Shown here: in pieces, positions 25,414 to 54,300 of the stretch
Position numbering within the stretch: the stretch's first letter is position 1
Layout: each line of letters starts with the position of its first letter
Position numbers and translations under genes: made by a program
The notes under the pieces: generated by a model
What the model was told of the DNA's origin: nothing
Seen by the model: only the letters and a program-made list of their open reading frames with translations
Database searches by the model: none
From: Thermoplasmata archaeon
Lineage (GTDB): Archaea; Thermoplasmatota; Thermoplasmata; Lutacidiplasmatales; UBA184
Direction of reading: 5' to 3'
Length of the DNA: 64,000 bases
Assembly (NCBI GenBank): GCA_021816865.1
Contig: JAKAWX010000001.1
Location: forward strand, 316,739 to 380,738

Positions 25414-25419
25414 ATTAAG
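25414..25419 (-). promoter_or_regulatory. TATA box of pheST
   Basis: CTTAAT on the minus strand is centred 25-26 nt upstream of ATG 25391. Its TAA overlaps the stop codon of the upstream sedolisin gene (25415-25417), the same arrangement as pheT/mcm. Confidence 0.55.
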
Positions 25420-27799
25420 TCCTTTCGCCACCGGTGGTTTCAGGGTCGGGCGCCGCGAGCGGTTCCTCGGCCGGAGCGAGAGCGGCCGGCTCCGCGGGAG
25501 TCGGGGGAGGCTCCGGCGACCGCGGTGAGGAAGGCGGCGGCGCCGACGGCCCGGCGGGGGGCGGACGGGCCGACCCGGTCGCGACGACGCGGCGGGGAGG
25601 CCGGCCGAGCGCGTAGCCGACGGTCGCTGCCGCGCCCATGATCGCGGCGAATCCGACGAGGTTGTACGGGTACGCGGCGAGACCGCTCAGGAACGGCGCG
25701 AACGCGAGGAGGTTGACCGCGACCGTGGTCGCGTTCACCCCGTAGTAGCCGTTCGAAGCGACGAGGAGCTGAGCGACCGCGTGGGAACCGAGGTAACAGA
25801 ACGGGACGGAGAGCGAGGCGTTCACGTTCCCTGCGGCGTCGGTCACCGGAGCGGCCGAGCCGAACGTGCCGGTGCACGGGCCGAGCGTCGACGACGCGGT
25901 CAGGGAAACGCGTACCGGGACTCCCGGGATCGGGGCCCCGGTCGTTCGGTTGGAAAGGTGCCCTTCGATCGTCACCGAGCCCCCGGGACCCACGGCGGCG
26001 GGGACGACCCGGACGCTCAGGTCCACGAACGTCGCCGTGAGGTCCTCGTAGAGCGCGACCGCGCTCGGAGAACCCCAACCGGTCTCGGGATCCCAACCCG
26101 GTGCCGCGGTCCCGAGGCAGGTGGTTCCCGAGGTGACGTCGACCAGACCGGGCGCCGCGGAACCCGCGGCGACGGCGGTCCCGATGGCGTAGAGACGAGG
26201 GGTCACGTACCCGAACGATTGGCCGTACACGGCGTCCATCTCGGTCAAGAGACCCGCCCAGAGCGGTGTGGCGAAGCTCGTGCCGGCCGCGGTCATCGAC
26301 CGTCCGTCAAAGTAAAGGGCGTTGAAGGCCGCGGTCGCGCTCACGTCGGGCGTGCCCCGGTACGCGTTCCCCGTCGTCGACGATTGCCAGGAGGGTGCAG
26401 AGAACTGGGTCGAGAACCCTCCTCCGCTATCGTTCCAAGCGGTCTCGGAGTAGCCGGTGACCCCGAACAGGTTTCGCACGAGGTGAACGTTCGTCCCGCC
26501 GACCGCGAGCACATCGGGGGAGGTGGCCGGGTACGTCGGCGAGGGGCCTCCCGTGCAGTTGGCCGCTGCGTCCCCACCGAGGTCCCCGGTCGCGGCCAGA
26601 AGCGTGATCCCCTTCTGCATCGCTTCGGCGAGGTACACTCCCCAGGCCGCCTGAAGGCCCGCGTCCGACGACTCGGGGGTCCCGAACGACATCGAGATCG
26701 CGTCGACCGGGAGCCCCACCGCCGTGTGCAACGCGTCGGCCATCGCGGTCGACGTCGGCGAGCAGTTGGGGGCGGTCCCCTCCGGCGCGTAGACGGCATA
26801 GAGCGTCGCGCCCGGCGCCATCGAACCCGACCACTCGAGGTCGAGCGTCAGTTCTTCGGACGCCCCGCACGGGTCGTTGACCGCCGCGGCAGACGGCGCG
26901 GGCGCGCCGTCGACCGGCTCGGGAACGACCGAGGGAGATGGGAATCCCGACGGGTAGTCCTGCGCGAAGAAGGTCTGGAGGTCGCTCGGGGAATACCCCG
27001 GCCCCCAGAGGAGGAGGGCGATCGACTGCGCCGACGCCCACCGGGCCGATCCCGAGAGATTGTAGAGGCCCGAAAGGTCGTAGATCGACCGCGCGATCGC
27101 CGGAGTGACGAGGTCGCTCGGGCTCGGGGACGCCGGACCGGACGTTCCGGTGGCGCTCGGGGTCCCGAGCGACGGGGTCGAGAACGTGGAGAACCCGGAC
27201 GAGAGTCCGAGCACGCTCGAGACGAGCGGTTCGAGGGAGGAAGGAAGGCTCGGCGGAGCGCGAGGATAGACGACGGGGCGCCCGTCGTGCCGACCCGCCT
27301 CCAGCGACGTGCCGAACGCGCGCCCGACCGCCGTCGCGCTTCCCGAGACGGTCAGCGACAGGCGGTCGGGCCACGCGTGGACGATGCTGAGGCCCTGGGA
27401 CTGGAAGTACTCCACGAACGTCGCGTACTGTCCCGGAGATAGACCGAACCGGTCCGCGATCTGAGGCGTCGTGAGGGGAGGCGCTCCGGGAGCGGGGGGT
27501 ACGAAGAACGCGGAGGTGCGCGGCTGGAACGTCACCACGACCGGAACCGTTCCGGCCGCCGCCACCGCGTCCTGGACGGAAAGCGACTCGGACGTCGAAT
27601 AGCCGGCCCTTGCGGCAAACGGAGGGGTGGCCGACACGATCGCGGACGGCCCGGCGGGCGCTCCGGCGACCGCCGTGGCGATACCGTGAGGAGAGCTCCC
27701 ACCGACGACGCCGGGCGCTCCGGCGAGCAGGAGAAGGACGCCGAGAGCCACGATCAGCATCGTAGGCCCTCCCCCCCTCCGTCCCCGACGGCCGTTCAT
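25415..27799 (-). CDS. Secreted, membrane-anchored sedolisin (S53) serine-carboxyl protease
   Basis: This 794-residue pro-protease of the kumamolisin family degrades proteins outside the cell. Order: basic N-terminus and signal/anchor helix (~14-34), pro-domain (~70-225), then catalytic domain (~230-590). The S53 triad is visible as E316-x3-D320 in SEELTLDLEW and S508 in AAGTSFATP. The oxyanion Asp is D407 in ATGDLGGD. The C-terminal calcium site is around DVTSGTT and GWDPETGWGSP. Next is one Ig-like beta domain (~590-705), then a transmembrane helix near 712-735 and a Pro/Glu-rich cytoplasmic tail. ATG 27799 is chosen because the signal peptide follows; no strong TATA box is apparent. It pairs functionally with the second sedolisin and the peptide importer. 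Confidence 0.88.
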   Translation of the reverse strand: MNGRRGRRGGGPTMLIVALGVLLLLAGAPGVVGGSSPHGIATAVAGAPAGPSAIVSATPPFAARAGYSTSESLSVQDAVAAAGTVPVVVTFQPRTSAFFVPPAPGAPPLTTPQIADRFGLSPGQYATFVEYFQSQGLSIVHAWPDRLSLTVSGSATAVGRAFGTSLEAGRHDGRPVVYPRAPPSLPSSLEPLVSSVLGLSSGFSTFSTPSLGTPSATGTSGPASPSPSDLVTPAIARSIYDLSGLYNLSGSARWASAQSIALLLWGPGYSPSDLQTFFAQDYPSGFPSPSVVPEPVDGAPAPSAAAVNDPCGASEELTLDLEWSGSMAPGATLYAVYAPEGTAPNCSPTSTAMADALHTAVGLPVDAISMSFGTPESSDAGLQAAWGVYLAEAMQKGITLLAATGDLGGDAAANCTGGPSPTYPATSPDVLAVGGTNVHLVRNLFGVTGYSETAWNDSGGGFSTQFSAPSWQSSTTGNAYRGTPDVSATAAFNALYFDGRSMTAAGTSFATPLWAGLLTEMDAVYGQSFGYVTPRLYAIGTAVAAGSAAPGLVDVTSGTTCLGTAAPGWDPETGWGSPSAVALYEDLTATFVDLSVRVVPAAVGPGGSVTIEGHLSNRTTGAPIPGVPVRVSLTASSTLGPCTGTFGSAAPVTDAAGNVNASLSVPFCYLGSHAVAQLLVASNGYYGVNATTVAVNLLAFAPFLSGLAAYPYNLVGFAAIMGAAATVGYALGRPPRRVVATGSARPPPAGPSAPPPSSPRSPEPPPTPAEPAALAPAEEPLAAPDPETTGGERT

Positions 27800-27863
27800 C
27801 CTCACGAGAATGGACAGCGCACCGTCAAGAACCTTCGGGCCGAGCGTCGGGCCTCTCGAACGG

Positions 27864-29321
27864 TCACACACGGATCGGGAGCGTGTAGCCTGCGGGCAGG
27901 TGAAACGTCCCCGGACCTCCGAGCGGGTCGGGCCGCGGTTGCGGAGGGGCTCCCCGGCGTCCGGCCAGGTACGCTTCGATCGCCTCGACGGCTTCCATCG
28001 CCGCCCCCATCGCGTAAACGACCGACCGGCCACCGGCGGCGAAGATCCCCGGGACCGCGGTCGCGTACCCCTTGCCCCGGCCTTCGACCCACCCCTGGGG
28101 GGTGACCTTGAGGTCGAGCTCGGGGCCGACGCCCGTGAGGTCGCTCTTCTGGCCGACCGCGACGATCACGGTGTCGCACGCGAGGGTCTCCTCGGAACCC
28201 GGGACGGGGACGAACGCTTGTCGACCCCCCCCGTCGGGCGACGCGAGCTCGACCGATTGCACGACGACCCCCTCGACGTGCGAGGACCCGACGAACCGCA
28301 CCGGCGAGCGCTGGAAGACGAACCGGACCCCTTCTTCCTCGGCGCCGTGGATCTCCTCGGGGTCGGCCGGCATCTCGGTGCGGCCGCGGCGATAAACGAG
28401 CGTGACATGCCCCCGGTCCGTGCGGCGCAGGGCGCTGCGGACCGAATCCATCGCGACGTCCCCGCCGCCGATGACCACCACCTCCCGACCGACGCGCGCG
28501 GGCGAGTCCCGCCCGGGCCCTTTGAGGAACTCGAGGGCCGGCAGCACTCCCTCCAAATCCTCGCCGGGGACCCCCATCGAACGGTGCGCGGAGGTTCCGA
28601 TGGCGAGGAAGACCGCGGCATAGCCGTCGTCGGCGAGAAGCGTCGCGAACGGTCGGTCCCGTCCCACCTTCGAGTTCGTCACGAACGTCACGTCGAGGTC
28701 CTTGAAGCGAGCGCGGTCCGCCTCGACGTCGGCGTTGGACATGCGGTACGCCGGGATCGTCTGCAGGAGGCCGCCGAGCTTCGGCTCCTGCTCGAAGACG
28801 GTGACCGAATACCCCCGGACCCCGAGCTCCCAGGCGGCCATCAGCCCGGCCGGGCCGGCCCCGACTATCGCGACGCGCTGGCCCTTCGGCTTCGCGGGAA
28901 CGTAGACGAGATCGCTCGTACCGAAGTCGAGGGCAGCGCGCTTCAGCTGGCGGATCGCGACCGGGACGCCCTTGCGCTTGACGACGCACGCGTCCTCGCA
29001 GTAGTGGTAACAGACCTTGCAGAGCGTGGTCGCCAGGGGGTTGTCCTGGACCGTGACGCGGGCCGCTCCGTCGAAGTCCGAATCCGCGATGCGTCGGATG
29101 TACTCACGGCAGTCCTGAGATATCGGACACGCCTCCACGCACCAGGGGCGGCGGCACTGCACGCATCGCTTGGCTTCGAGGACGGCTTCCTCTTTCGAGT
29201 AGGCGTGCAGGACCTCCCGGAAGTCCCCCGTGCGCTCCTCGACCGGGGTCTCCGGGATCGGCACCCGCACCGGATTCAGCTTCGGCGGAGCGGGTTTCGC
29301 GGTCGCAACGTCGTCGGCCAT
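27864..29321 (-). CDS. GltD/NfnB-like NAD(P)H-dependent iron-sulfur flavoprotein
   Basis: This 485-residue oxidoreductase has the glutamate-synthase small-subunit architecture. The N-terminal Fe-S domain has cysteine clusters C53/C56/C61/C65 with C71, and C101/C104/C108/C112, enough for two [4Fe-4S] clusters. An FAD-binding Rossmann fold (GAGPAGLMAAWELG, 154-167) and an NAD(P) fold (VIGGGDVAMDSVRSALRR) follow. A final FAD motif GIFAAGG and an AMGAAMEAVEAIEAYL helix end the protein. No GltB or NfnA partner is adjacent, so it could be the NADPH-dependent unit of an orphan glutamate synthase, an Nfn-type transhydrogenase subunit, or a ferredoxin:NADP oxidoreductase. ATG 29321 lies in a divergent promoter region shared with SRP54; longer starts to 29399 run through that promoter. 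Confidence 0.8.
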   Translation of the reverse strand: MADDVATAKPAPPKLNPVRVPIPETPVEERTGDFREVLHAYSKEEAVLEAKRCVQCRRPWCVEACPISQDCREYIRRIADSDFDGAARVTVQDNPLATTLCKVCYHYCEDACVVKRKGVPVAIRQLKRAALDFGTSDLVYVPAKPKGQRVAIVGAGPAGLMAAWELGVRGYSVTVFEQEPKLGGLLQTIPAYRMSNADVEADRARFKDLDVTFVTNSKVGRDRPFATLLADDGYAAVFLAIGTSAHRSMGVPGEDLEGVLPALEFLKGPGRDSPARVGREVVVIGGGDVAMDSVRSALRRTDRGHVTLVYRRGRTEMPADPEEIHGAEEEGVRFVFQRSPVRFVGSSHVEGVVVQSVELASPDGGGRQAFVPVPGSEETLACDTVIVAVGQKSDLTGVGPELDLKVTPQGWVEGRGKGYATAVPGIFAAGGRSVVYAMGAAMEAVEAIEAYLAGRRGAPPQPRPDPLGGPGTFHLPAGYTLPIRV

Positions 29322-31904: not shown

Positions 31905-34900
31905 TCACGACGGAGGGGGCGACGGCGGCTGTCCGCTGTCCCCCGAGGAGGGTGGGCTTCCCGACCAGGTCTGCGGCGGGCTTGCCATCGGCGGCTTTCG
32001 GCGGGCGAAGTAGATCGCCAGCACCAGGAACACCAGGGCCAGCACCGCCATCACGCCGATCAGCGCGTAGGCGAGCGTGCCGAGGAAGTTCTGGTCGGTC
32101 GTCTTCTGGATGACCGGGACCACCGGGGAGATGGTGATCGCCACACCGACCGCCGCGCCGTTCACCGAGAGCGTGTTGCCTGTCGCGGACGAGGTCGCCG
32201 TGTAGCCCGACGGAACCACGACCGTGAACGTGTACGTCCCGTTGGGAACGGTGAACCCGATCGTGCCGGTGGTGCTCGAAAGGCTCGCCCCGTTCATGTA
32301 GACCGACCAGGTGCCACCGCTCGGCAGGCCCGACTCGGTGAACGTCACCGCGTAGGTCGTCGGAATCGGCCCGAAGATGACGACCTGCGTCGCCGGTCCC
32401 GCGGCCACGGTCACGTTCCCGCTCGCCGGGGTCGCCACGTAGGTGGCGGGCACGCCGACCGAGAACGCGAACGTCCCGTTCGGCAGGTCCACCGTCAGGA
32501 AGTACGTGGTCGACGTGGTGGTCGCCCCGTTCACGGTGATGTTCCAGCTGGTTCCGGTCGTCAGGCCGCCCTCGAAGAACGTCACCGCGTAGGTGAACTG
32601 AACGAACGCGACCTTCACGGTCACGGCCGAGCCGTTCACGGTCACGGTCCCGCTCCAGGTGGACGTCGTATACCCTCCGATGGTCGAGGTCATCCACGAG
32701 TACGTCCCGTTCGGCAGCGTGAACACGATCGACGAGGTCGTGCTCAGTTGGCCAAAGCCACCGATCGTCACGTTCCACGCAGAGCCCGTCGGCAACCCAG
32801 TCTCCGCGAAGGTTACGGCGAACCCGTTTCCTGCAGACGCGAGGGGTACGGCCACCACGACGCTCGCGCCGGCCACCGCGACCTGGCCCGAGCTCGCGGG
32901 TGGGGTCACCGAGGCGGGCACGGTCAGGGCGAACGAGTACGTCCCGTTCAGCTCGTAGAACGTGATGTTCGCCCCCGACGACGTCTGCGAGTACCCTCCG
33001 AGGTTCACTGACCATGTCGAACTGGGCGGCAGGCCGGTCGACGCGAAGGTGATCGCGTAGGTCGATAGGATCACGCCCGTGTAACTCACCGCCACGGAGA
33101 CGTTCGCCGCCACGATGGTGCTAGCGCCGGCACCCGAGTTGGTGTAGCCGATCACCGTGCCCGGAGCGTAGTTGTACGTCCCCGCCGGCAAGGTGTAGCT
33201 GATCGTCGGGTTCTGCGAGGTCTGCGCGCCGATGTTCGCGACGACCATCGACCATGTGGTGTTCGACACCAGGCCGCCCTCCGTGAAGGAGAGCGTGAAG
33301 AACGGTGCCACGAGCGCCGAGAACGCGATGTTCTCCGAGAGACTGGCCCCGTTGATCGTCACCGTCCCGTTGCTGGGCGTGACGCCGTAGCCCGACACGA
33401 AGGCGACCGTGTACGGGTAGGTGCCGTTGGTCTGGCCGGTGAACTCGATCGACGACGTCGTCGACGACTGCGTGACCCCAGCGAGGGTGACCGCCCAGGC
33501 CGTGCCGGAGGGCAGCCCGGTCTCGTTGAAGTACACGTTGTAGACGTTCGAGGCGTAGGCCCAGGTGAACCAGGTCTGCACACCGCCGCCGCCGACCGAC
33601 GGGTTCGTGTTGATCCCCGTCGGGGAAAGCCACGACCCGTAGTCGTAGTTGTACACTTGCGCGTAGGCGTAGACCATGAACGCAAGTTCGTTGCCGATGT
33701 GCTCGACGAGGTTGAACTCGAGCGCGCGCTTGGTCAGGTCCGTCTCGTGGGCCGCGAGCCCGATCCACCCGAGCATCTGCTGGTACGCGGTGCCCTCGCA
33801 CGCGGTTTGGACCTGGTCGCCCGGCTGGAACGCCCAGTAGGTCAGGTTCGCCCAGGTGATCCCGGTGTGGCCGCACGACGGCGCGTTGTACGCCGCCTCG
33901 TACATCACCGAACCGAGCGCCATCCCGTAGGTGAACGTCCCGTTCGGCTCCCACATTGGGAGCAAGTAGTCGGTCGGGTCCGCGTAGTCAGGAACCCAGC
34001 CCCAGTTGTAGACCGGTAGCGAGCCCTGGCCGTTCCCCAGGAAGACGTTCTGGAAGAACCCGGTGCCCGGCAGGTCGTAGCTGTAGGGCGCGAGACGGCC
34101 GCCCGAGAGCGTCTTGACTTCCTGGATCCAGTCCGCGATCGCGGTGTCCAGACTCGGAGAGCCGACCCAGCCGACGATCGCCCACTGGCACGGGCTCGCC
34201 GTCGTGCACGACGCGAGCTGTGAATCGTTCGCGACCGCCTGTGCCCACCACCACGCGGCCCCACCGATATGGGAGGCGTTGGTGTCGGGGTTGCCGGTCG
34301 GCCAACTCACGTTCTTCGGGTAGTAGCTCACTTGGGCGGGCGGGATCGCGCCGCCCATCTCCTGAGTCGTTACCACACCATCGACCGTCCAAACGGTGTT
34401 CTGGATGGTGTCGTACGGGTAGGCGTGGACGAGGAACTGCCGCAGCTCGGTGTTGGCGAGGAAGTTCCCGGGCACGTTGAGCGTGCCGATCGGGTCGACC
34501 GCCGCCTCGTTGGCCAAGCTGAAGTTCAGCTCGAAGGCCATGAACCAGTTGGTTCCCGTGGTGATGTTTCTGTACAACCCGTACTTGCCCGAGTTCACCA
34601 GCTGGAGGACCGTCGAGGTGTGGGACGCGTCGAATCCGGCGCTGTCCGCCTGTCCCGCGATCATCTCCTGGAGACCCAGAGAGTCGTCGTTGTCCCAGTA
34701 GACCACGACGTTCGGTACGTAGTGCCCGGGCGCAGGCTGGCACTGAGCCTGACCGGCGCAGCCGGTCGGCTGCTGGTAAGCCGGGTTCGCGTGCAGCGTG
34801 TAGCCGCCGCTTCCGCCCGGACCACCGCTCGCCGAAACACCGACCGCGTAATACGGGCCCGAGCCGACCATGGTCGACTGGACGCCCGGCTGGGGCGAGA

Positions 34901-35957
34901 GCGGCGCCGGCGCCGAGAGGAGCTGCACCGCATCCCAGAGGGTCGGGCTTGCACTCTTCACGAAGTTCGTGTAACCGCTCTGCGTCGAGCTTGTGGCGTT
35001 ACCGGGCAGTAGGCACGGTCCGTCGCCCTTCGGGGCCGAAGTACCCAGGAAACCCGGGAGGCCCGCGTTCAGGTAGGTAAACGTTCCGCACGGCGTGATG
35101 CTCCCGCCGAGCGGGTCGCTGACCAGCTCGAGGAAGTACGGCCAAGCCAGGCCCGAGGCACCCACGTTGAAGGTGATGCATCCGTTCGTCGCCACCGTCG
35201 TGGAGGTCGGGCAGTACGCCGAGTCGTTGATCATGAACGCCGACAGCACGCGGTTCGGGGTGTTGTTGTACGGCGCGTGAATCCCGCCGTCCCAGCTCGA
35301 GTTGCCGGCGGGGAGGACCGCCTGGGCGTTGATCCAGCCGTTCCACCACTCAGGAACCGGGAGGTTCGCGAAGGAGAACGTCCGCGCGAAGGAGAACAGC
35401 ACGTCCGAGGGGTAGACACCCCAGCTCGCACCGGTCGCCGGGTCGTAGAAGTGCGCCGCCGAGTCGATCTCGAAGGTGTAGTACTGGGGCGCGCCGGTCG
35501 TCGCGTTGTTGTAGACGAGCGAGCTGCCGAACTGCGCCGTGCAGGCCGGAGAGCCGGGGACGCAGGTCGCGACCTCGGGCGTCCAGTTCTGGTAGTAGGG
35601 CCCCGTCTGGGTCCCGTTGAAAGCAATCAGGGTCTGGTAAACGTTGGTAATCGGCTCGTCATCCACCGTGTAGTACGCGACCGCCGGGTCGACGGTGGGG
35701 GCACCGCCGGGGGCGACCTCGTAAATCTGGAGCGTACCGGGGTGGGGGCCGGCCGCAGCGGGGGCCGCTGCGCTCGTCACAGCACTCGTCGCCCGAGCCG
35801 CGTTCACGGTGTGGGACACCGTCGGACTCGCGGCTCCCGTGGCGCCCTGAACCGTAAGGGCTTGGACACTGCCAGCCCCGAACACGCTCAGGCCCAGCAA
35901 CACGACCACGAGGACCGCTACAACCGTCGCATATCGACGCATACCGATGGCTCTCAT
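31905..35957 (-). CDS. Oligopeptide-binding ABC protein (family 5) with six beta repeats and membrane anchor
   Basis: This 1350-residue surface protein starts with a signal peptide (RRYATVVAVLVVVLLGLSVF). A DppA/OppA-type solute-binding domain (~70-815) follows, with TLQIYEVAPGGAPTVDPAVAY at its start and typical VSYYPKNVSWP and GWVPDYADPTDYLLP segments. Six tandem ~75-80-residue beta repeats (~815-1300) share the pattern F-x-E-x-GLP-x-G-x-x-W-x-V then NGTY. A C-terminal helix (~1312-1335) and a Pro-rich cytoplasmic tail end the protein. The repeats would act as a stalk lifting the receptor off the membrane. Ordinary family members have ~550 residues. A TATATA box and an SD-like GGAG precede ATG 35957. 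It is divergent from its permease-ATPase operon. Confidence 0.9.
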   Translation of the reverse strand: MRAIGMRRYATVVAVLVVVLLGLSVFGAGSVQALTVQGATGAASPTVSHTVNAARATSAVTSAAAPAAAGPHPGTLQIYEVAPGGAPTVDPAVAYYTVDDEPITNVYQTLIAFNGTQTGPYYQNWTPEVATCVPGSPACTAQFGSSLVYNNATTGAPQYYTFEIDSAAHFYDPATGASWGVYPSDVLFSFARTFSFANLPVPEWWNGWINAQAVLPAGNSSWDGGIHAPYNNTPNRVLSAFMINDSAYCPTSTTVATNGCITFNVGASGLAWPYFLELVSDPLGGSITPCGTFTYLNAGLPGFLGTSAPKGDGPCLLPGNATSSTQSGYTNFVKSASPTLWDAVQLLSAPAPLSPQPGVQSTMVGSGPYYAVGVSASGGPGGSGGYTLHANPAYQQPTGCAGQAQCQPAPGHYVPNVVVYWDNDDSLGLQEMIAGQADSAGFDASHTSTVLQLVNSGKYGLYRNITTGTNWFMAFELNFSLANEAAVDPIGTLNVPGNFLANTELRQFLVHAYPYDTIQNTVWTVDGVVTTQEMGGAIPPAQVSYYPKNVSWPTGNPDTNASHIGGAAWWWAQAVANDSQLASCTTASPCQWAIVGWVGSPSLDTAIADWIQEVKTLSGGRLAPYSYDLPGTGFFQNVFLGNGQGSLPVYNWGWVPDYADPTDYLLPMWEPNGTFTYGMALGSVMYEAAYNAPSCGHTGITWANLTYWAFQPGDQVQTACEGTAYQQMLGWIGLAAHETDLTKRALEFNLVEHIGNELAFMVYAYAQVYNYDYGSWLSPTGINTNPSVGGGGVQTWFTWAYASNVYNVYFNETGLPSGTAWAVTLAGVTQSSTTSSIEFTGQTNGTYPYTVAFVSGYGVTPSNGTVTINGASLSENIAFSALVAPFFTLSFTEGGLVSNTTWSMVVANIGAQTSQNPTISYTLPAGTYNYAPGTVIGYTNSGAGASTIVAANVSVAVSYTGVILSTYAITFASTGLPPSSTWSVNLGGYSQTSSGANITFYELNGTYSFALTVPASVTPPASSGQVAVAGASVVVAVPLASAGNGFAVTFAETGLPTGSAWNVTIGGFGQLSTTSSIVFTLPNGTYSWMTSTIGGYTTSTWSGTVTVNGSAVTVKVAFVQFTYAVTFFEGGLTTGTSWNITVNGATTTSTTYFLTVDLPNGTFAFSVGVPATYVATPASGNVTVAAGPATQVVIFGPIPTTYAVTFTESGLPSGGTWSVYMNGASLSSTTGTIGFTVPNGTYTFTVVVPSGYTATSSATGNTLSVNGAAVGVAITISPVVPVIQKTTDQNFLGTLAYALIGVMAVLALVFLVLAIYFARRKPPMASPPQTWSGSPPSSGDSGQPPSPPPS

Positions 35958-36287: not shown

Positions 36288-36329
36288 GTACTACGCCTCG
36301 GTGGAGGGTTGCGGAGCGAGGTCCGGGCC

Positions 36330-37577
36330 ATGCGGATGTCGGTCTACGTGATTCGCCGCCTGATCCTGCTCGTCCCGGTGATCATCGGGGTGATGACCAT
36401 CACCTTCGCGCTGGTCAGCTCGCTGCCGATCCAGAATCGCCTGGTGGCGGTCTACGGATCCCCGTCGCAACGTGCCCCGTGGATTTACAACCCCACCCTG
36501 GTGCCCGGCCAAGGGCCGTGCCCGACCACCGCCACGTCGCCGTGCCCCAACCCGTACTACCTGAAGTTCGTTCACGATTTAGGTCTCGACCAGCCGATTC
36601 CCGTGCAGTGGGGCATCTACATCTTCAACAGTCTCACGTTCCAGTGGGGGACGGTCAGCAACCACAGCGCCGCCGCCAACCTCATCTCGAGCATCCGCGG
36701 CTTGCCCGTCACCACGGTCCTCTCCTGGTACCTGCCCTACACTCTCGAGCTGGCCGTCCTATCGCTCGCGCTGATCTTGGTCATCGCGATTCCGCTCGGG
36801 AACCTCGCTGCGGTCAACCGCAATCGGCCTATTGACCAGGCCGCACGGATCATGTCGTTCTCCGGTTATGCCATGCCGGGGTTCCTCCTGGCGTCGCTGG
36901 TCCTCATGGCCCTGGTCATAGGTATTGGAAGCGGCACCGGATACGTCACCCACACTCCTTGGTGTCCGGCCGGTGAGTCGACCTTCACCGAGCTCACCCA
37001 ATCTTGGCCCCTCCCGAACTGCTTCGCGTCCGGAACCCTGCTCTCGGGCTATCCCACCTGGATCCTTCATAATGGGATCCAGAGCACCCCCACCGGGTTC
37101 CCCACGGTCGACGCTCTCCTCCACGGGATGTACTGGCTGGCCCTCGACACGGTGCTTCGGATGATCCTCCCGGCGCTCGTCATCGCGTTCGGGACCATCG
37201 CGGTCCTCCTGAGGTTCGTCCGCAACAGCATGCTCGAGGTGATGAATCTCGACTTCGTCCGGACCGCCCGCGCGGAGGGAGTTCCCGAGAGTCTCGTGGT
37301 GCGACGTCACGCTGGCCGCAATTCGCTCAACGTGACGATCACGGTCATGGGGCTGTTGTTCGCGTTCTTCATCGGGGGCTTCCCGGTGATCGAGGACGTC
37401 TTTCATCTGAACGGAGTGGGATTGATGCTCGCCTACTCGGTCCAGATCAGCTCCGGGCCCATCGATTTCGCGCTGATCTTTGGGACGACGCTCCTCTTCA
37501 CCTTCATCATCGTGTTCGCGAACATCATCGTCGACGTCCTCTACGCGTACCTGGACCCGCGGGTCCGGCTGGGGTAG
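36330..37577 (+). CDS. Oligopeptide ABC transporter permease (DppB/OppB type)
   Basis: This 415-residue inner permease begins MSVYVIRRLILLVPVIIGVMT, the standard DppB first helix. The membrane core follows, with a ~70-residue extracytoplasmic insert (~40-110). The EAA coupling motif lies near 310-330 (VRTARAEGVPESLVVRRHAGRN), with later FAFFIGGFPVIEDVFHLNG and a final FANIIVDVLYAYLDPRVRLG. The ATG at 36330 is preferred to the in-frame start at 36309 because an SD (GAGGT) precedes it by 8 nt. It starts the importer operon, and the second permease follows 4 nt after its stop. Confidence 0.93.
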   Translation: MRMSVYVIRRLILLVPVIIGVMTITFALVSSLPIQNRLVAVYGSPSQRAPWIYNPTLVPGQGPCPTTATSPCPNPYYLKFVHDLGLDQPIPVQWGIYIFNSLTFQWGTVSNHSAAANLISSIRGLPVTTVLSWYLPYTLELAVLSLALILVIAIPLGNLAAVNRNRPIDQAARIMSFSGYAMPGFLLASLVLMALVIGIGSGTGYVTHTPWCPAGESTFTELTQSWPLPNCFASGTLLSGYPTWILHNGIQSTPTGFPTVDALLHGMYWLALDTVLRMILPALVIAFGTIAVLLRFVRNSMLEVMNLDFVRTARAEGVPESLVVRRHAGRNSLNVTITVMGLLFAFFIGGFPVIEDVFHLNGVGLMLAYSVQISSGPIDFALIFGTTLLFTFIIVFANIIVDVLYAYLDPRVRLG

Positions 37578-38736: not shown

Positions 38737-40362
38737 ATGGCCCTTAGCGGGCAGACCCCCATCGCCGGCACGAGCGCTCCGGACGAGCCCCGGAACGAGG
38801 CCGCGCCGCTCGAAGCCTCGCTCACGGGGCCGTCGAGCGCGGGCGACAAGGACGTGATCCTCGACATCCGCGACCTGAAGACTTACTTCTTCACGTACGA
38901 CGGGGTCGTCAAGGCGCTCGACGGGGTCACGTTCAAGATCCGTCGGGCCGAGACGACCGGTCTGGTCGGGGAAACCGGCTGCGGAAAGAGCGTGACCGCC
39001 TTCTCGGTCAACCGCCTGATCAACGACCCCCCGGGACGTGTCATGAGCGGTCAGATCCTGTTCAAGGACGCCGACCTCCTCTGGGGTCTCGACCGCGAGG
39101 CCACGTTCAAACCGATCCGCGGGACGAACCGCTTCAAGGTCCGACGGTCGTTCCGGCGGATCCGGGACGCGAACGACCGCCTCGGCGCGGTGCGGGGCCG
39201 GGGGATCGCGATGATCTTCCAGGAGCCTACCCAGGCGATGAACCCGGTCTTCTCCGTGGCGAACCAGCTCGGAGAGGTCCTGTTGCTCCACCGGGGCATC
39301 GAGATCATCGACGAGATGCTCGCGGCGGAACCGGCGAACCCGGAGGCGCGTCCGGCCATCGATGCGCTGCTGACCGCGGCGAGCGAGGAGAACCGGGAGC
39401 AGGTCGTGGCCGCCGCCACGCATCTGGGCGAGGTCGTGAAGTCGCCGAGCTTCGGGACCGAGTCGTTCTACATCGTACGCGGCTCGGGCGCCGCGGCGCG
39501 CGAGATGGGCCCGGAGCTCGAACGGGCGCTGCGGCGCCGCCGGTTGCACCCGGGCCAGCGCCGCTACCTCGCGCACCGGCGCAAGCTCCTCGAGATCCGC
39601 GGCAAGATCGACGACCTCCACTTCGAGGAGATGCACGAGCGGGCCTCGCGTTCGGGACCGATCCGGGCGCTCAAGGTACGGGACCGCGTCGAGCGGTGGT
39701 CCCACTTCTACTACGGGCTCTGGGGGCTCCGGAGCCGAGTCCAACGGCAACTCAATGACGAGCTCTTCTGGCGGGTCGTCCGCCAGCTCGAGATGGTCTC
39801 CATCGCGAACCCGGCCCAGATCGCGAAGGGGTACCCCCACGAGCTCTCGGGAGGGATGCTCCAGCGGGTGATGATCTCGATGGCGCTCTCGTCCGAGCCG
39901 GACGTCCTGATCGCGGACGAGCCGACGACCGCGCTCGACGTTACCGTGCAGGCCCAGATCCTCGAGCTGATGCGCGACCTCAAGTCGCGCGTCGGGACCG
40001 CCATCCTGCTGATCACGCACGACCTCGCGGTGATCGCGGAGGTCGCCGACCGGGTCTGCGTGATGTACGCGGGCAACATCGTCGAGCAGGGGCCGGTCCA
40101 CGAAGTCTTCCGTCGGCCCCTCCATCCGTACGCGCAGGGATTGCTCGCCTCGATTCCCCGTCTCGACCAGCCCGAGAAGGAACTGAGCTCGATCCCCGGG
40201 TCGGTCCCGAACTTGATCACGCCCCCGTCCGGGTGCCGGTTCCATCCGCGCTGTCCGTACGCGATGCCGATCTGCAACGAGGCGTTGCCCCCGACGACCC
40301 TGGAGGGACCCGAGCACACTGTCGCGTGCTATTTATACAAGGGACCAGTGGTTGGCGCCTAG
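38737..40362 (+). CDS. Oligopeptide ABC transporter ATPase 1 (DppD type) with large insertion
   Basis: This 541-residue ATPase is energy-coupling subunit D. Walker A GETGCGKS is at 78-85, the Q-loop at Q162 ([11 protein letters not shown]), the signature LSGGMLQR from 370, Walker B VLIADEPT at 390-397 and H428. The C-terminal oligopeptide-ATPase domain carries [15 protein letters not shown]. Between the Q-loop and the signature (about 187-345) sits a ~155-residue charged, helical insertion; usual DppD proteins have ~330 residues in all. A further ~35-residue N-terminal extension precedes the core. The insertion sits in the region that meets the permease, so it could adjust coupling or bind a regulator. 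Confidence 0.92.
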
Positions 40363-40383: not shown

Positions 40384-41580
40384 ATGGACTCGCTCGCAAA
40401 CCCGGTAGTGATCTCCGCCCGAAACATCCGCAAGTACTTCCCCATCCGGGGGGGCCTTTTCTCCACCCACATCGGAGACGTCCGGGCCGTCGATGGGGTG
40501 AGCTTCGACGTTCTCGAGGGCGAGACCGTCGGACTGGTAGGGGAGTCCGGCTGCGGGAAGACGACGGTCGGGCGGCTGCTGCTCCGGCTGATCGACGCGA
40601 CCTCGGGCCACACGTTCTACCGCCCCCCTCCTGAGGTGAGCAGCCGGATCGATGCGCTGTACGCGACGCTACAACCGTACACGGACCCGGAGTCGAACGG
40701 CCGCAACCTATCGCCCGGGGCCCGCGCGTCGCTCAAGGAGCTGGACGAGATCGCGAACCAGCACTCGCTCTACCGCAAGAGCGGTCGGGCGATGCACGAA
40801 CTTCGCGGAAAGCTCCAGATCGTCTTCCAGGACCCGTTCAGCTCGCTGAGCCCCCGCATGCTCGTCCGCGACATCATCGCCGAGCCCCTCGAGATCCACC
40901 ACGCGGGCTCGCGGGCCGAGAGGTATCGGCGCGTCGGGGAGCTCTTGCGCGATGTGGGCCTCAATCCCGAACATGAGTGGAGGTTCCCCCACGAGTTCTC
41001 CGGCGGACAGCGCCAACGGATCGGGATTGCCCGGGCCCTCGCCTTGCGGCCGGAGTTCATCGTGCTCGACGAGCCGACGAGCGCGCTCGACGTCTCCGTC
41101 CAGGCACAGGTACTGAACATCCTTCGACGGCTCCAGGCCGAACAGCGGCTCTCGTACCTGTTCATCTCCCACCACCTGTCGGTCGTTCGGGCGATGGCCC
41201 AGCGGGTGGTCGTGATGTACCTCGGGAAGGTGGTCGAGCGGGCCCCGACCGACGCGCTGTTCTCGCGTCCGCTCCACCCCTACACTCAAGCGCTCCTTTC
41301 GGCGATCCCGATCCCGGACCCCGACCTCAAGCGCGAACGGATCCTGCTTCAGGGCGACGTCCCGAGCCCCGCCGCTCCTCCGCCCGGCTGCCGGTTCCAC
41401 ACCCGCTGTCCCGCCGTCATGCCCATCTGCTCGAAGACGGAGCCGCCGCTCATCGAGGTACGTCCCGAGCACTTCGTCGCCTGCCACCTCTACCCGACCC
41501 CGATCCCCCGGACCGGCGCGCCCGACGCGACCCCTTCCGGTCTCCCGCTTCCGACCGCGTCGGCGCCGGCCGCCTCCTAG
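40384..41580 (+). CDS. Oligopeptide ABC transporter ATPase 2 (DppF/OppF type)
   Basis: This 398-residue partner ATPase has Walker A GESGCGKT (53-60), Q149 ([13 protein letters not shown]), signature EFSGGQRQR near 204-212, Walker [13 protein letters not shown] and an H-loop SHHLSVV. The C-terminal oligo_HPY domain ends [15 protein letters not shown], then a Pro/Ala tail. A ~60-residue insertion (about 77-138) separates Walker A from the Q-loop, where most OppF proteins go straight to a KxLxxLRRxxQIVFQD segment. ATG 40384 follows the first ATPase by 21 nt. This completes the importer: binding protein, two permeases, two ATPases. Confidence 0.93.
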
Positions 41581-41608: not shown

Positions 41609-42085
41609 ATGGCGTCGAACGCCGGCCCCCGCAGATGGTTCGACGAGCCAACGGCCGAGACCGAGTCCCCCGAAGCGCTCCACGGCCTGCGGGCCCAGCT
41701 CGACCGTGTCGCCGAAGAGAAGCGACGGGCGCTCGCCGATCCTGGGCCCTCCTGGCGGGTGTGGTGGTTCCACCACGCCGCGAAGTGGTACGTGGTTCTC
41801 GGACTGCTGATCGCGGACCTGTGGCTGGTCACGCTCGGCGTCGAGACGGGCGGCCTCGCCTTCGCGCTCGTCGCCCTGGCCGGCCTGCTCTACCTCGAGT
41901 TCCTGCTCTACCGGTTCCTGTGGTATCGTCCCCGCGACGAGGGCCGGCGCGCCGTCGGGGCGTTCCGCCCCACGCTCGTGCGCCCCGTGCGGTACGGCCG
42001 ATGGACCCCCGAGGCGGACTACGTCCGGTCCGGCGGCGAATTGGACGCCGACGACGACGGGGCGAAGCTCCGGGAATTCGCGTAG
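41609..42085 (+). CDS. Two-helix membrane protein of unknown function
   Basis: This 158-residue protein has a charged N-terminal ~55 residues. Two adjacent hydrophobic helices follow (about 59-77, YVVLGLLIADLWLVTLGV, and 80-104), then a basic and finally acidic cytoplasmic tail. I do not recognise the family. It begins 28 nt after the last importer gene and could be an accessory member of that operon. Otherwise it would be an independent gene; rpe follows 48 nt later with its own possible promoter. Confidence 0.6.
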   Translation: MASNAGPRRWFDEPTAETESPEALHGLRAQLDRVAEEKRRALADPGPSWRVWWFHHAAKWYVVLGLLIADLWLVTLGVETGGLAFALVALAGLLYLEFLLYRFLWYRPRDEGRRAVGAFRPTLVRPVRYGRWTPEADYVRSGGELDADDDGAKLREFA

Positions 42086-51284: not shown

Positions 51285-51367
51285 AGGTCTTGTGCGCGCC
51301 CCCGGACGGCCCGCGGGGGTAAGGTGGATATGGGGCGGGCGCGGTGTAGAGTTGCCTCTCGGGCCTC

Positions 51368-54300
51368 ATGAGACGACACGTGCTCCGCTGGACCCCTTGG
51401 GTGGTGGCCGTTCTGGTCCTCGCGCCCGGGGTCCTGGTCGTCGATTCGACGAACGGCTCGGGCGCCTCACCCTCCGGGATGGACTCTTCGTCCGGTGCGA
51501 TCCCTTCGGTCACGGGTGCGGCCCCGTCGAGCCGGCTCACGGTGGCGCCGTCGTACGCGCCGCCGCCCGGCGTGACGCGACTCGGCGCGCTCCCGGCCTC
51601 GACCCCGATGGACGTCGCCGTGGGATTCGCTCCGACCGACCCGGCGGGTCTCGGCGCTGTCGTGAACGCGGAGTACGCCCCCGGGTCCCCGACGTTCGGA
51701 CGCTTCCTCTCCGCGAGCGCCCTCGCCGAACGGTACGGTCCGTCCCCCGCGGCGGTCGCCCACGCGCGGGCGTACTTTGCGGGGTTCGGCCTCTCGGTTT
51801 CGGGGTCCCCCAACGACCTTCTCCTCCTGGTCCGGGGACCGAGCGATCGGATCGGAGCGGCGTTCGGCACGACCTTCGACCTGTACCGCGGCCCGTCGGG
51901 CCGGACCTTCGTGAGCCACCCGACGCCCGCGACGCTCCCGGCGGGGCTCTCCGTGGGCGGGGCCGTCGGGCTCGGCAACGCGACGCCCGTGGTACCGGCC
52001 GTGCGGGGGATCTCCGGGTCCGTCCCCATCGCCGGCCCCGCCGCGGCGTGCGGGCCCGGGCCGTCGGGGTTCAGCCCCTGCGAGGTCCAGAACGCCTACG
52101 GGTTTGCGAGTCTGGTGGGGAACGGGACGAACGGCACCGGGGAGAGTATCGGCATCGTCGACGCCTACTCCGGTAGCGAACCCGAAACCCAGCTTTCCGC
52201 CGATTTTTCCACGTTCGCTCGGGAGTTCGGTCTCCCGTCGGGAGGGCTCCGATTCCTCTACCCGGTCCCGACGAGCCAGAACCTCAACCTCTCGGGCGTG
52301 AATCTTGACTGGGGGCTCGAGGAGGCGCTCGACATCGAGTGGGCCCGGGCCGCCGCACCAGGGGCGACGATCGACCTGACGTTCTCCCCGAACGCGGGGG
52401 CGGGCCTCTATGCGGCGATCGACGCGTTGGTCGCCGCGGACTCCGTGAACGTCCTCTCCCTGAGCTGGGGGGAGCCGGACACGGGGGTCTACAACGCGTT
52501 CTCGGCTCCGTGCAGCTTCGCGTGCAACGCCTCGACCGACGGGACGTACGCGCTCCTCGACCCGGTGCTCGAGTTCGCGGCCGCCGAGGGGATCAGCGTC
52601 TTCGCGGCGAGCGGCGACTGCGGCTCGGCCGACGGGACCGGCGGTCAGGCGACGAACTACCCCGCGTCCGACCCGTTCGTCACGGGGGTCGGGGGCACGG
52701 TGCTCTCCGCGACGACGAACGGTGCCTACCTCTCGGAGACCGGCTGGAGCGGGAACGCGAGCGGGTCGACGGCCCCGGGCTGCGTCAACCAGGGCGGCTC
52801 GGGCGGAGGGTTCGCGCCGTTCCCCCGGCCCTGGTGGCAGACCGGGCTACCGAGTACCCCGGCGCGACGCGGCGTGCCGGACGTTTCGCTCGACGCGGGC
52901 GCGCCGGTGTCGATCGTCTTCGGAGGAGGCGCGGAAGGGGTGATCGGCACGAGCGTCGCGACACCGATCTGGGCGGGGATCGCGGCGCTCGCCGACGAGC
53001 GCGCGGGCCGTCCGCTCGGCTTCCTCGATCCCGGCCTCTACCGGGCGGCCGGGGGGCCGAACGGTTCGGCCGCCTTCCACGACATCGTCTCGGGGAACAA
53101 CGGCTACGCGGCCGGACCCGGGTGGGATCCCGTGACGGGGATCGGCACCCCGGACGTCGCGGCCCTCCTCGGGGCCCTCGCCGCCACCCCGACCACGACG
53201 GTCGGCGGACCGCGCGCGTTCCTCTACGCGTCGCCGCGCTTCGGGCTCCTCCCCCTGACCGTCTCGTTCGCAATCGCGGCGAGCGGAGGCACCGGGACCT
53301 ACCCGCTCGAGAGCGTCTCCTTCGGAGACGGCAACGCCTCCCCCGCGCGCGGGGTCATCACCCATACGTTCACCGCCCCGGGCGTCTACTCGGCGGTCGG
53401 CTGGGTCATCGACTCGAGCGGGAATACGAGCGCCTCGCCGCCGATCGCGATCGTGGTCGGCGGCGGCACGAACCTCTCGGTCCGGCTGACGGTCTCGAAC
53501 CCCCGGCCGGCCGTCGGAGGCTCGGTCACGCTCTCCGCCTTGGCGAACGGCGGCCTCGCCCCCTACGAGTACTCGTTCTCGTTCGGGGACGGGACGTACG
53601 CGTCCAACCTCACGGCGGCGACCGTCGCCCACGCCTACGGGGCCGCGGGCGGCTACTGCGCGGAGGTCGTCGTGGCCGATGCAGCGCTTCCCCCCGACGG
53701 GGCGGCGAGCGCGCGCGTGGCCGTCTCGGTCGGGGGCGCAGGGGGGCCGAACTGCGGCAACGCCACGACGACGCTCACGCTCTCGCCGTCCGCGCCGGGG
53801 GCCGTCCGCGACGCGCCGGCCGATTTCCCGAGCCTGTTCGCGGCCGCCGGCGGTGCGACCGGGGTTCCCGGCGTCCCGACCCAGTTCGCGTTCGCCTCGA
53901 ACGACTCGTACACCGCGGCGTGCGAGTGCACGATCTTCCGCGGGCCGGGCAACTACTCGGTGCGGGGATGGGCGAACGACACGGTCGACCAGGAGGCGAC
54001 GGCCGTGACGAACGTATCGGTCGTGCCGTCGCTGGACGGGGCGTTCGCGATCTCCCACTCGAGCGGGCCGGCGCCGCTCACGGTAGAGTTCTTCGCCGCG
54101 TCCCGCGGCGGTGACCACGCCAACGCGAACCGCACCGTCTGGTTGTTCGGCGACGGGTCCGCCGCGGTCGGCCACACCGTGAACCACACCTACGACCTCC
54201 CGGGCGAGTACCTCGCGGTCGGGTCGCTCTCCGATTCCGGCCACGGGAACGCATCGGAGGCGTTCCTCATCGACGTCCTCGCGCCGGGCGGGATCCGCGG

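Follow-up and report, generated by a model that had tools for sequence, protein, structure and literature searches.

A peptide importer receptor probably raised on a membrane-anchored stalk of six predicted beta-sandwich domains in a Thermoplasmata archaeon

Archaea have no outer membrane that could hold solute receptors, and the retention and positioning of such receptors in archaea are known mainly from the sugar receptors of Sulfolobus. How a peptide receptor may be held at such a surface is the question raised by a gene in the 64,000-nucleotide stretch of Thermoplasmata archaeon DNA analysed here (the window; assembly GCA_021816865.1, contig JAKAWX010000001.1, positions 316,739 to 380,738). 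The gene lies beside a DppBCDF-type peptide importer, and its product carries six tandem repeats and a C-terminal transmembrane (TM) helix behind a binding domain. We consider it likely that this product is an importer receptor raised on a C-anchored spacer stalk of six domains and tied beside its importer. The gene and its parts are as follows, AF2 denoting AlphaFold2.

31905..35957 (-), receptor gene, 1350 residues: open frame with signal peptide, binding domain, six-repeat stalk, TM anchor and cytoplasmic tail
35859..35957 (-), Sec-type signal peptide, residues 1-33: hydrophobic stretch 10-28, cleavage site inferred
33564..35747 (-), peptide-binding domain of OppA/DppA fold, enlarged, residues 71-798: AF2 model, Foldseek, profile match
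33300..33542 (-), stalk repeat 1, residues 806-886: repeat comparison, AF2 model and profile search, as for repeats 2 to 6
33060..33299 (-), stalk repeat 2, residues 887-966
32823..33059 (-), stalk repeat 3, residues 967-1045
32592..32822 (-), stalk repeat 4, residues 1046-1122
32355..32591 (-), stalk repeat 5, residues 1123-1201
32112..32354 (-), stalk repeat 6, residues 1202-1282
32007..32087 (-), C-terminal TM anchor, residues 1291-1317: single strongly hydrophobic helix, positive charges on the inner side
31965..31979 (-), cytoplasmic tail motif PPQTW, residues 1327-1331: conserved in relatives

The TM helix is followed by ARRK and then by a Pro/Ser-rich tail, and a motif test found no prepilin-type (class III) motif at the N-terminus. 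The protein would thus be a type I membrane protein, with the signal peptide removed, the OppA/DppA-like domain outside and one C-terminal helix in the membrane. The initial annotation covered only the C-terminal ~545 residues, from the repeats to the stop (31905-33545; repeat 1 starts at window position 33542). It had proposed a peptide-type receptor with a stalk and a membrane anchor of its own, which is borne out by the domain order, the predicted fold and the C-terminal TM helix. Its statement that the protein is more than twice the normal length holds against OppA/DppA-type chains of 464-633 residues, with the correction that part of the excess lies in the enlarged binding domain (728 residues, the stalk having 477). 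The architecture is real and well conserved. An assembly chimera was ruled out, as independent assemblies show the identical architecture and the G+C fraction at third codon positions is similar in the receptor part (0.90) and the stalk part (0.92).

The AF2 model of the ectodomain (mean predicted local distance difference test, pLDDT, 88) was compared with the PDB using Foldseek. The top matches are DppA, MppA, GbpA and OppA (best E 8.8e-20, to Helicobacter pylori DppA; template modelling score to the target up to 0.80). At E <= 0.001 there are 232 matches, and the best 50 of these 232 are, by title, binding proteins for peptide, glutathione, nickel, opine and similar ligands. By sequence, a family profile of the receptor aligns with AliB, AliD and OppA, and the alignment to the AliB and OppA chains places the GW-x-x-DY segment of OppA in the receptor; the Asp of this segment presumably holds the peptide N-terminus. 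The receptor part is accordingly modelled as a cluster C two-lobed fold, for which a peptide is the presumed ligand, and it would be the substrate receptor of the adjacent importer. With OppA, DppA, MppA, AliB and AliD (cluster C, or family 5) it shares the predicted fold, the GW-x-x-DY segment and the dppBCDF neighbourhood; it differs from them in the size of its domain, in the C-terminal stalk of six sandwiches and in the C-terminal TM helix. It is the sole member of its family found in the genome, which is 83% complete.

The six repeats are 77-81 residues long each, with pairwise identities of 27-48% and invariant positions F5, G9, L10, W16, S27, G40 and T41. Twenty-five repeats from other proteins of this genome, the receptor being left out, were made into a profile, which recovers all six (E 2.3e-27, 6e-14, 4e-22, 3.1e-26, 4.1e-23 and 4.8e-23). 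Its only further match in the receptor scores 1.4 bits (667-680), it matches no other open reading frame (ORF) of the window, and none of 2000 shuffled stalks was reported. A chance likeness is rejected by the profile search and the shuffles, and the six imperfect repeats before a TM helix stand as initially described. The stalk contains a single Lys in its 477 residues (0.2%) and no Arg, His or Cys; Thr makes up 17.6% and Ser 11.9%, and there are 14 N-glycosylation sequons.

Related receptors were collected by removing near-copies and dropping weak or short matches, which left 76 distinct proteins. Eight of these have six repeats. Charged residues account for 2-5% of their stalks versus 9-13% of their binding domains. 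Forty-five of their 49 repeat units (the model split one repeat of L036) have as their best match the equally placed unit of another receptor, same-position identity being 48% and that between other positions 32%. From this likeness it follows that the array was six repeats long before these species parted and was never re-shuffled. The distance from the end of the receptor domain to the TM helix is 499-507 residues in all eight, and together with the repeat order this favours, as far as sequences can tell, a conserved array length.

These figures bear on the proposal that the array is a neutral lineage fashion, i.e. a mobile, easily duplicated linker whose copy number has no function beyond that of a tether. 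Relatives work with three, four, five or six repeats or with none, paralogs in one genome differ in length, and the module is widespread, all of which would suit such a linker. Neutral repeat arrays usually change copy number and homogenise, however, and here order and number are conserved in eight receptors whose binding domains share only 63% identity on average. We therefore consider a neutral linker very improbable.

In the AF2 model of the stalk (pLDDT 91.6; predicted template modelling score, pTM, 0.68) every repeat is a sandwich of 7-8 strands. Single domains match the B domains of UafA and SdrD, CnaB2, the transthyretin-like domain of carboxypeptidase D and Sulfolobus SlaB (VIA-align Z 8.0-9.2; root mean square deviation, rmsd, 1.9-2.8 over 76-80 residues). 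The repeats are thus predicted to be CnaB/transthyretin-like sandwiches in fold type; descent is not claimed, the scores being middling for a common arrangement. No Pfam family above its cut-off covers the repeats in the receptor or in nine other proteins of the genome that carry them, NCBIfam gave nothing above cut-off for the receptor's repeats, and a search of PDB sequences with the repeats gave nothing convincing (best E 0.3). An enzymatic or carbohydrate-binding domain, which the initial annotation had named as the finding that would speak against a stalk, is unlikely given that no such family appears by sequence, though a rhamnogalacturonan lyase domain is found among the unrelated fold matches at Z 8.0. 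With no sequence match to an enzyme or sugar-binding family, and lying on the anchor side of the protein, the repeats most likely act as a stalk.

CnaB/transthyretin-like shafts (SdrD B, UafA, SpaA-type pilins) are close to the repeats in predicted fold type, at scores that unrelated proteins reach as well, and share their tandem use in a shaft, whereas the repeats of the window's receptor show no sequence match to them. CnaB shaft domains carry a Lys for an internal isopeptide bond. One Lys per domain, as these bonds need, is not found in the stalk composition, and with its single Lys a CnaB-like Lys isopeptide bond is possible in at most one repeat. SlaB, the membrane-anchored S-layer subunit of Sulfolobus acidocaldarius (8qox), has a similar sandwich (Z 8.0, rmsd 2.4 over 76 residues) and is, like the window's receptor, a surface stalk with a C-terminal membrane end. 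Passages of PMC10903991 describe SlaB as a trimer with a C-terminal helix of 132 residues; the stalk model contains no long helix of the kind needed for a trimeric coiled coil.

According to the stalk proposal, the six repeats would be small beta-sandwich domains, with hardly any charged residues and with sites for glycosylation, strung together into a fixed-length spacer that raises the receptor off the membrane toward the outer part of the protein coat. The stalk would keep the receptor tied near the importer, where it could sample outside peptides and bend or lean back to the permease, and the anchor would prevent its loss from a cell that lacks an outer membrane. Six sandwiches placed end to end are estimated at ~20-24 nm, with 3.5-4 nm for each domain. 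Parts of PMC12448462 describe two cultured Thermoplasmatales species, Thermoplasmatales being the nearest cultured group, as having no S-layer and a dense unordered protein layer of ~20 nm thickness. The estimated stalk length would fit this coat, which is that of a different organism from the window's. The initial suggestion that the receptor is positioned through an S-layer finds no support, the coat of these two species being unordered.

On the whole genome a repeat profile gave 32 matches in 11 open frames. Nine repeat carriers other than the receptor were examined over their whole length; they include two thermopsins, two phosphoesterase-like proteins, two pyrroloquinoline quinone (PQQ)-propeller proteins and one PKD protein. 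Within the phylum the module occurs in 43 of 292 genomes (14 of family f1, 27 of f19 and 2 of f21). In a second sample the stalk was also matched in one f3 and one f11 genome, and a further f11 genome matches the whole receptor query. The expectation that the same repeats occur in other Thermoplasmata surface proteins is confirmed by this survey of the genome and the phylum. A module that escapes every Pfam family at its cut-off in ten carriers marks many surface proteins of some Thermoplasmata.

Where the repeats sit in these other proteins was examined in 36 complete non-receptor proteins with at least two repeats, from loci picked for repeat matches and so not a random sample. Twenty-three have a C-terminal TM helix, and in 20 of the 23 the last repeat ends no more than 40 residues from it, 6.4 being expected for random placement. 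The three exceptions are two DppC permeases (repeats 9 and 22 residues past TM1) and L154. The membrane-adjacent repeats of the C-anchored carriers are therefore placed where a stalk belongs. Repeats also lie close behind an N-terminal TM helix in two carriers (26 residues in L008/L079, 21 in L218). Two proteins, L212:3054-6737 and L125:3001-5760, consist mostly of repeats, with 13 and 10 copies and a C-terminal TM helix, and are candidate coat proteins.

The same distribution could mean that the repeats are mainly adhesion or coat-building modules, which stick to each other, to glycans or to coat proteins, with reach as a by-product. The occurrence of the module in many surface proteins, in up to 13 copies (L212), would provide many partners per cell, and among the fold matches are shafts of adhesins and pilins as well as an S-layer subunit and a domain of a polysaccharide lyase. 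Two DppC permeases have repeat pieces in their outer loop, and repeat proteins lacking a detected C-terminal TM helix exist among both the receptors, where they keep 3-5 repeats and a region behind the binding domain that is richer in Lys and Arg, as would suit retention by binding, and the other carriers. In 20 of the 23 C-anchored carriers, however, the repeats lie beside the membrane and below the functional domain, a place that suits a spacer and would leave an adhesin less exposed; moreover, the receptor stalk is almost free of charged residues, and its repeats have stayed in order and have not homogenised. On balance, adhesion as the main role appears rather unlikely.

A number of observations weigh against the stalk proposal itself. 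The Pfam model SBP_bac_5 scores the receptor at E 9.7e-5 (22.1 bits), under the curated cut-off of 32.4, which is a detection threshold and not a biological feature, and in a six-frame search of the genome the same model gave no match at E 0.001. Unrelated proteins, namely a hydrazine dehydrogenase subunit, rhamnogalacturonan lyase and an EMC subunit, reach similar Z scores to those of the shaft domains. Thirteen of the 36 non-receptor carriers lack a detected C-terminal TM helix; 12 of these 13 have an N-terminal hydrophobic stretch, and in 10 of the 12 the repeats lie at least 255 residues away from it, so that in these 10 they do not look like stalks. Seven of the 76 receptors have repeats and no detected C-terminal TM helix (L042 being cut at its 3' end), so that the repeats of this branch do not form a stalk on a C-terminal membrane anchor. 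The receptors of f19 and f21 are without repeats, though those genomes carry the module in other proteins. Paralogous receptors differ in stalk length (343 versus 264 residues in G001, 427 versus 274 in G012), which argues, by sequence comparison, against a single fixed coat height. A stiff stalk of 20 nm would hinder docking at the permease, so hinges must be assumed. Finally, localisation, ligand and length rest on prediction and comparative genomics, a straight stalk is an assumption, and the stalk model has a pTM of 0.68.

How general the stalk is among importer receptors was assessed with the 76 distinct proteins. Seventeen have a C-terminal TM helix and 3-6 repeats (eight with six, two with five, one with four and six with three). 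A second class of 43, class B, was defined by zero repeats, no C-terminal TM helix and a stretch of 100 residues or more ahead of the binding domain. The absence of repeats is thus a matter of definition, not even one being found in any of the 43; L056 is cut at its 5' end, and L065 and L117 are cut at their 3' ends, which leaves room for a C-terminal TM helix in those two. An N-terminal TM helix was detected in 42 of these 43, and a spacer of 236-279 residues in 39, with a median of 252 for those 39, which were chosen for spacers of 236-280 residues. Three further receptors have a C-terminal TM helix and no detected repeats, and six are short or partial (class S, made up of four incomplete frames and of two short receptors from a different family). 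Repeats are therefore present in relatives' importer receptors, 24 of the 76 carrying them, contrary to the absence that the initial annotation had considered as a refutation; they are not general, the 43 of class B using a repeat-free N-terminal spacer instead. The C-anchored stalk would be one of two main mounts, the other being an N-terminal, often pilin-like anchor, mostly with a spacer of ~250 residues.

A prepilin-type motif precedes the N-terminal TM helix in 21 of the 42 N-anchored receptors and in none of the 16 C-anchored receptors with an N-terminal hydrophobic stretch, the window's included (both counts without a shuffled control). It is likewise missing from the four unanchored repeat receptors with such a stretch, so that the prepilin-type N-terminus and the repeats were not seen together in one protein (0/20). 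At least 19 of the 21 come from the window's family (L072 and L073 are known by title only), and the 13 f19 and f21 receptors of that list have none. Prepilin-type N-termini with a spacer of ~250 residues, PKD-like by eye, were seen in L047, L048, L068, L072, L102, L104 and others, and several of these, L104 not among them, adjoin the same importer operon.

In the region behind the binding domain Lys and Arg together make up 2.5-7.1% in the seven unanchored repeat receptors, 0-2.1% in 15 of the 17 C-anchored ones and 3.4-3.8% in the other two, everything behind the domain being counted, in L045 a propeller too. From this composition the unanchored proteins may be held by charge. Among them, L045, L070, L107, L114 and L075 have 3-5 repeats, and L045 apparently has a YVTN-like propeller (by eye). 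The receptor gene closest to L070 (L076 / L135) is interrupted by stops, in a genome that also has intact receptors.

A quick tree without bootstrap was calculated for the 73 receptors of at least 560 residues. It requires eight changes among classes A-D, and the C-anchored class A, with five changes, does not form one clade; the strongly supported branches alone force at least two changes for this class. The C-anchored repeat forms are grouped nearby and yet are not one clade, which makes more than one change of mount probable, as judged from the sequences.

Archaeal receptors with anchors of their own are already known. The di/oligopeptide-binding proteins of Sulfolobus have a C-terminal TM segment after a Ser/Thr-rich linker. 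They resemble the window's receptor in their C-terminal anchor and in the Ser/Thr-rich region that joins it to the binding domain; they differ from it in that its linker is predicted to be a folded, ordered array of six domains and that an N-terminal mount takes its place in relatives with the same operon. The bindosome receptors of S. solfataricus, to which bindosome studies were limited as of 2013 according to a passage of PMC4187195, are also surface-mounted, and the N-anchored relatives found here likewise often have a pilin-like N-terminus, whereas the window's receptor has none and is anchored at the opposite end. What is unusual is the ordered, nearly uncharged stalk of six domains, together with the alternation of mounts at one operon. 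No description of a repeat stalk on an archaeal peptide receptor was found in the paper listings of an open-access library, which is weak evidence of novelty.

The importer lies directly beside the receptor gene, in the opposite orientation.

36309..37577 (+), DppB/OppB permease, divergent from the receptor gene: PF00528, 102 bits
37573..38724 (+), DppC/OppC permease, outer loop without repeats: PF00528, 82 bits, and OppC_N; start set at an inner ATG, the ORF list starting at 37480
38737..40362 (+), DppD-type ATPase: ABC_tran and oligo_HPY
40384..41580 (+), DppF-type ATPase: ABC_tran and oligo_HPY
41609..42085 (+), small conserved protein, encoded at the end of the importer cluster in relatives: synteny

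The receptor is thus next to permeases of OppBC type and to two ATPases that carry the oligopeptide C-terminal domain. The order pth2, reversed repeat receptor and dppB onward is found at nine loci (the window, L061-L063, L120 and L128-L131), the stretches of L129-L131 stopping within or just past dppC. At nine other loci dppBCDF and the small gene are followed by a reversed N-anchored receptor, with pth2 upstream of dppB in six of the nine. One more repeat receptor, that of L064/L119 with 3 repeats, follows dppBCDF in the same orientation. Judging from gene order, both mounts sit in a similar chromosomal place and serve dppBCDF operons. One receptor family at the same importer operon with two main mounts offers a natural experiment on membrane distance versus uptake.

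The cytoplasmic tail carries PPQ[S/T]W or a close form in all 10 C-anchored receptors seen with importer genes beside them (L041, which would count as operon-linked through its near twin L040, is not among the 10) and in four of five C-anchored receptors with short loci. None of three paralogs without importer genes in the fetched stretch has such a tail; of these, L100 and L101 are near-copies, and L099 is on a contig of only 9.5 kb and is nested in the tree among operon-linked receptors. The motif is also absent from all 23 non-receptor repeat proteins with a C-terminal TM helix (two of them permeases), so that a general sorting signal for surface proteins is unsupported. One thermopsin (L083) has a near match, and a single narrow DNA pattern, with 6 matches, revealed no other such tail in the genome.

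Two DppC permeases, L128:13243-14745 (500 residues) and L131:6886-8424 (512 residues), contain two repeat pieces between TM1 and TM2. The domain E-values are 5e-8 to 8e-12, and the operons of both include repeat-stalk receptors. The loop after TM1 lies outside in DppC-type permeases. Repeats are absent from the other 20 of the 22 complete DppC proteins of the group, some from loci known by title only, and from all listed DppB proteins. Taken together, the tail motif and the DppC repeat pieces hint, at the level of sequence, that receptor and importer touch beyond the binding domain. A stronger version would make the C-anchored receptor a fixed subunit of the importer, with stalk repeats pairing with the repeats of the permease loop and the PPQ[S/T]W tail contacting DppD/DppF. 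We regard this as improbable; if true, one chain would span the distance from the outer coat to the motor. A second DppC-type permease of the window's genome is encoded at L088/L091 (G000:C8:78424-79059), and tblastn found no receptor of this family in the 19.5 kb fetched around it.

The link to the two sedolisins of the window, whose peptide products the receptor had initially been suggested to reach, is weak, one lying ~4 kb and the second ~15 kb from the receptor gene. Five repeat-receptor loci (L061, L063, L120, L128 and L129) extend far enough on the side where the nearer sedolisin lies, and each of them has a sedolisin there. The sedolisin-like protease at 25415-28033 (-) apparently ends in a TM helix (by eye); the other, at ~51350-54100 (+), has PKD-like domains behind the protease (by eye) and is 30% identical to the first.

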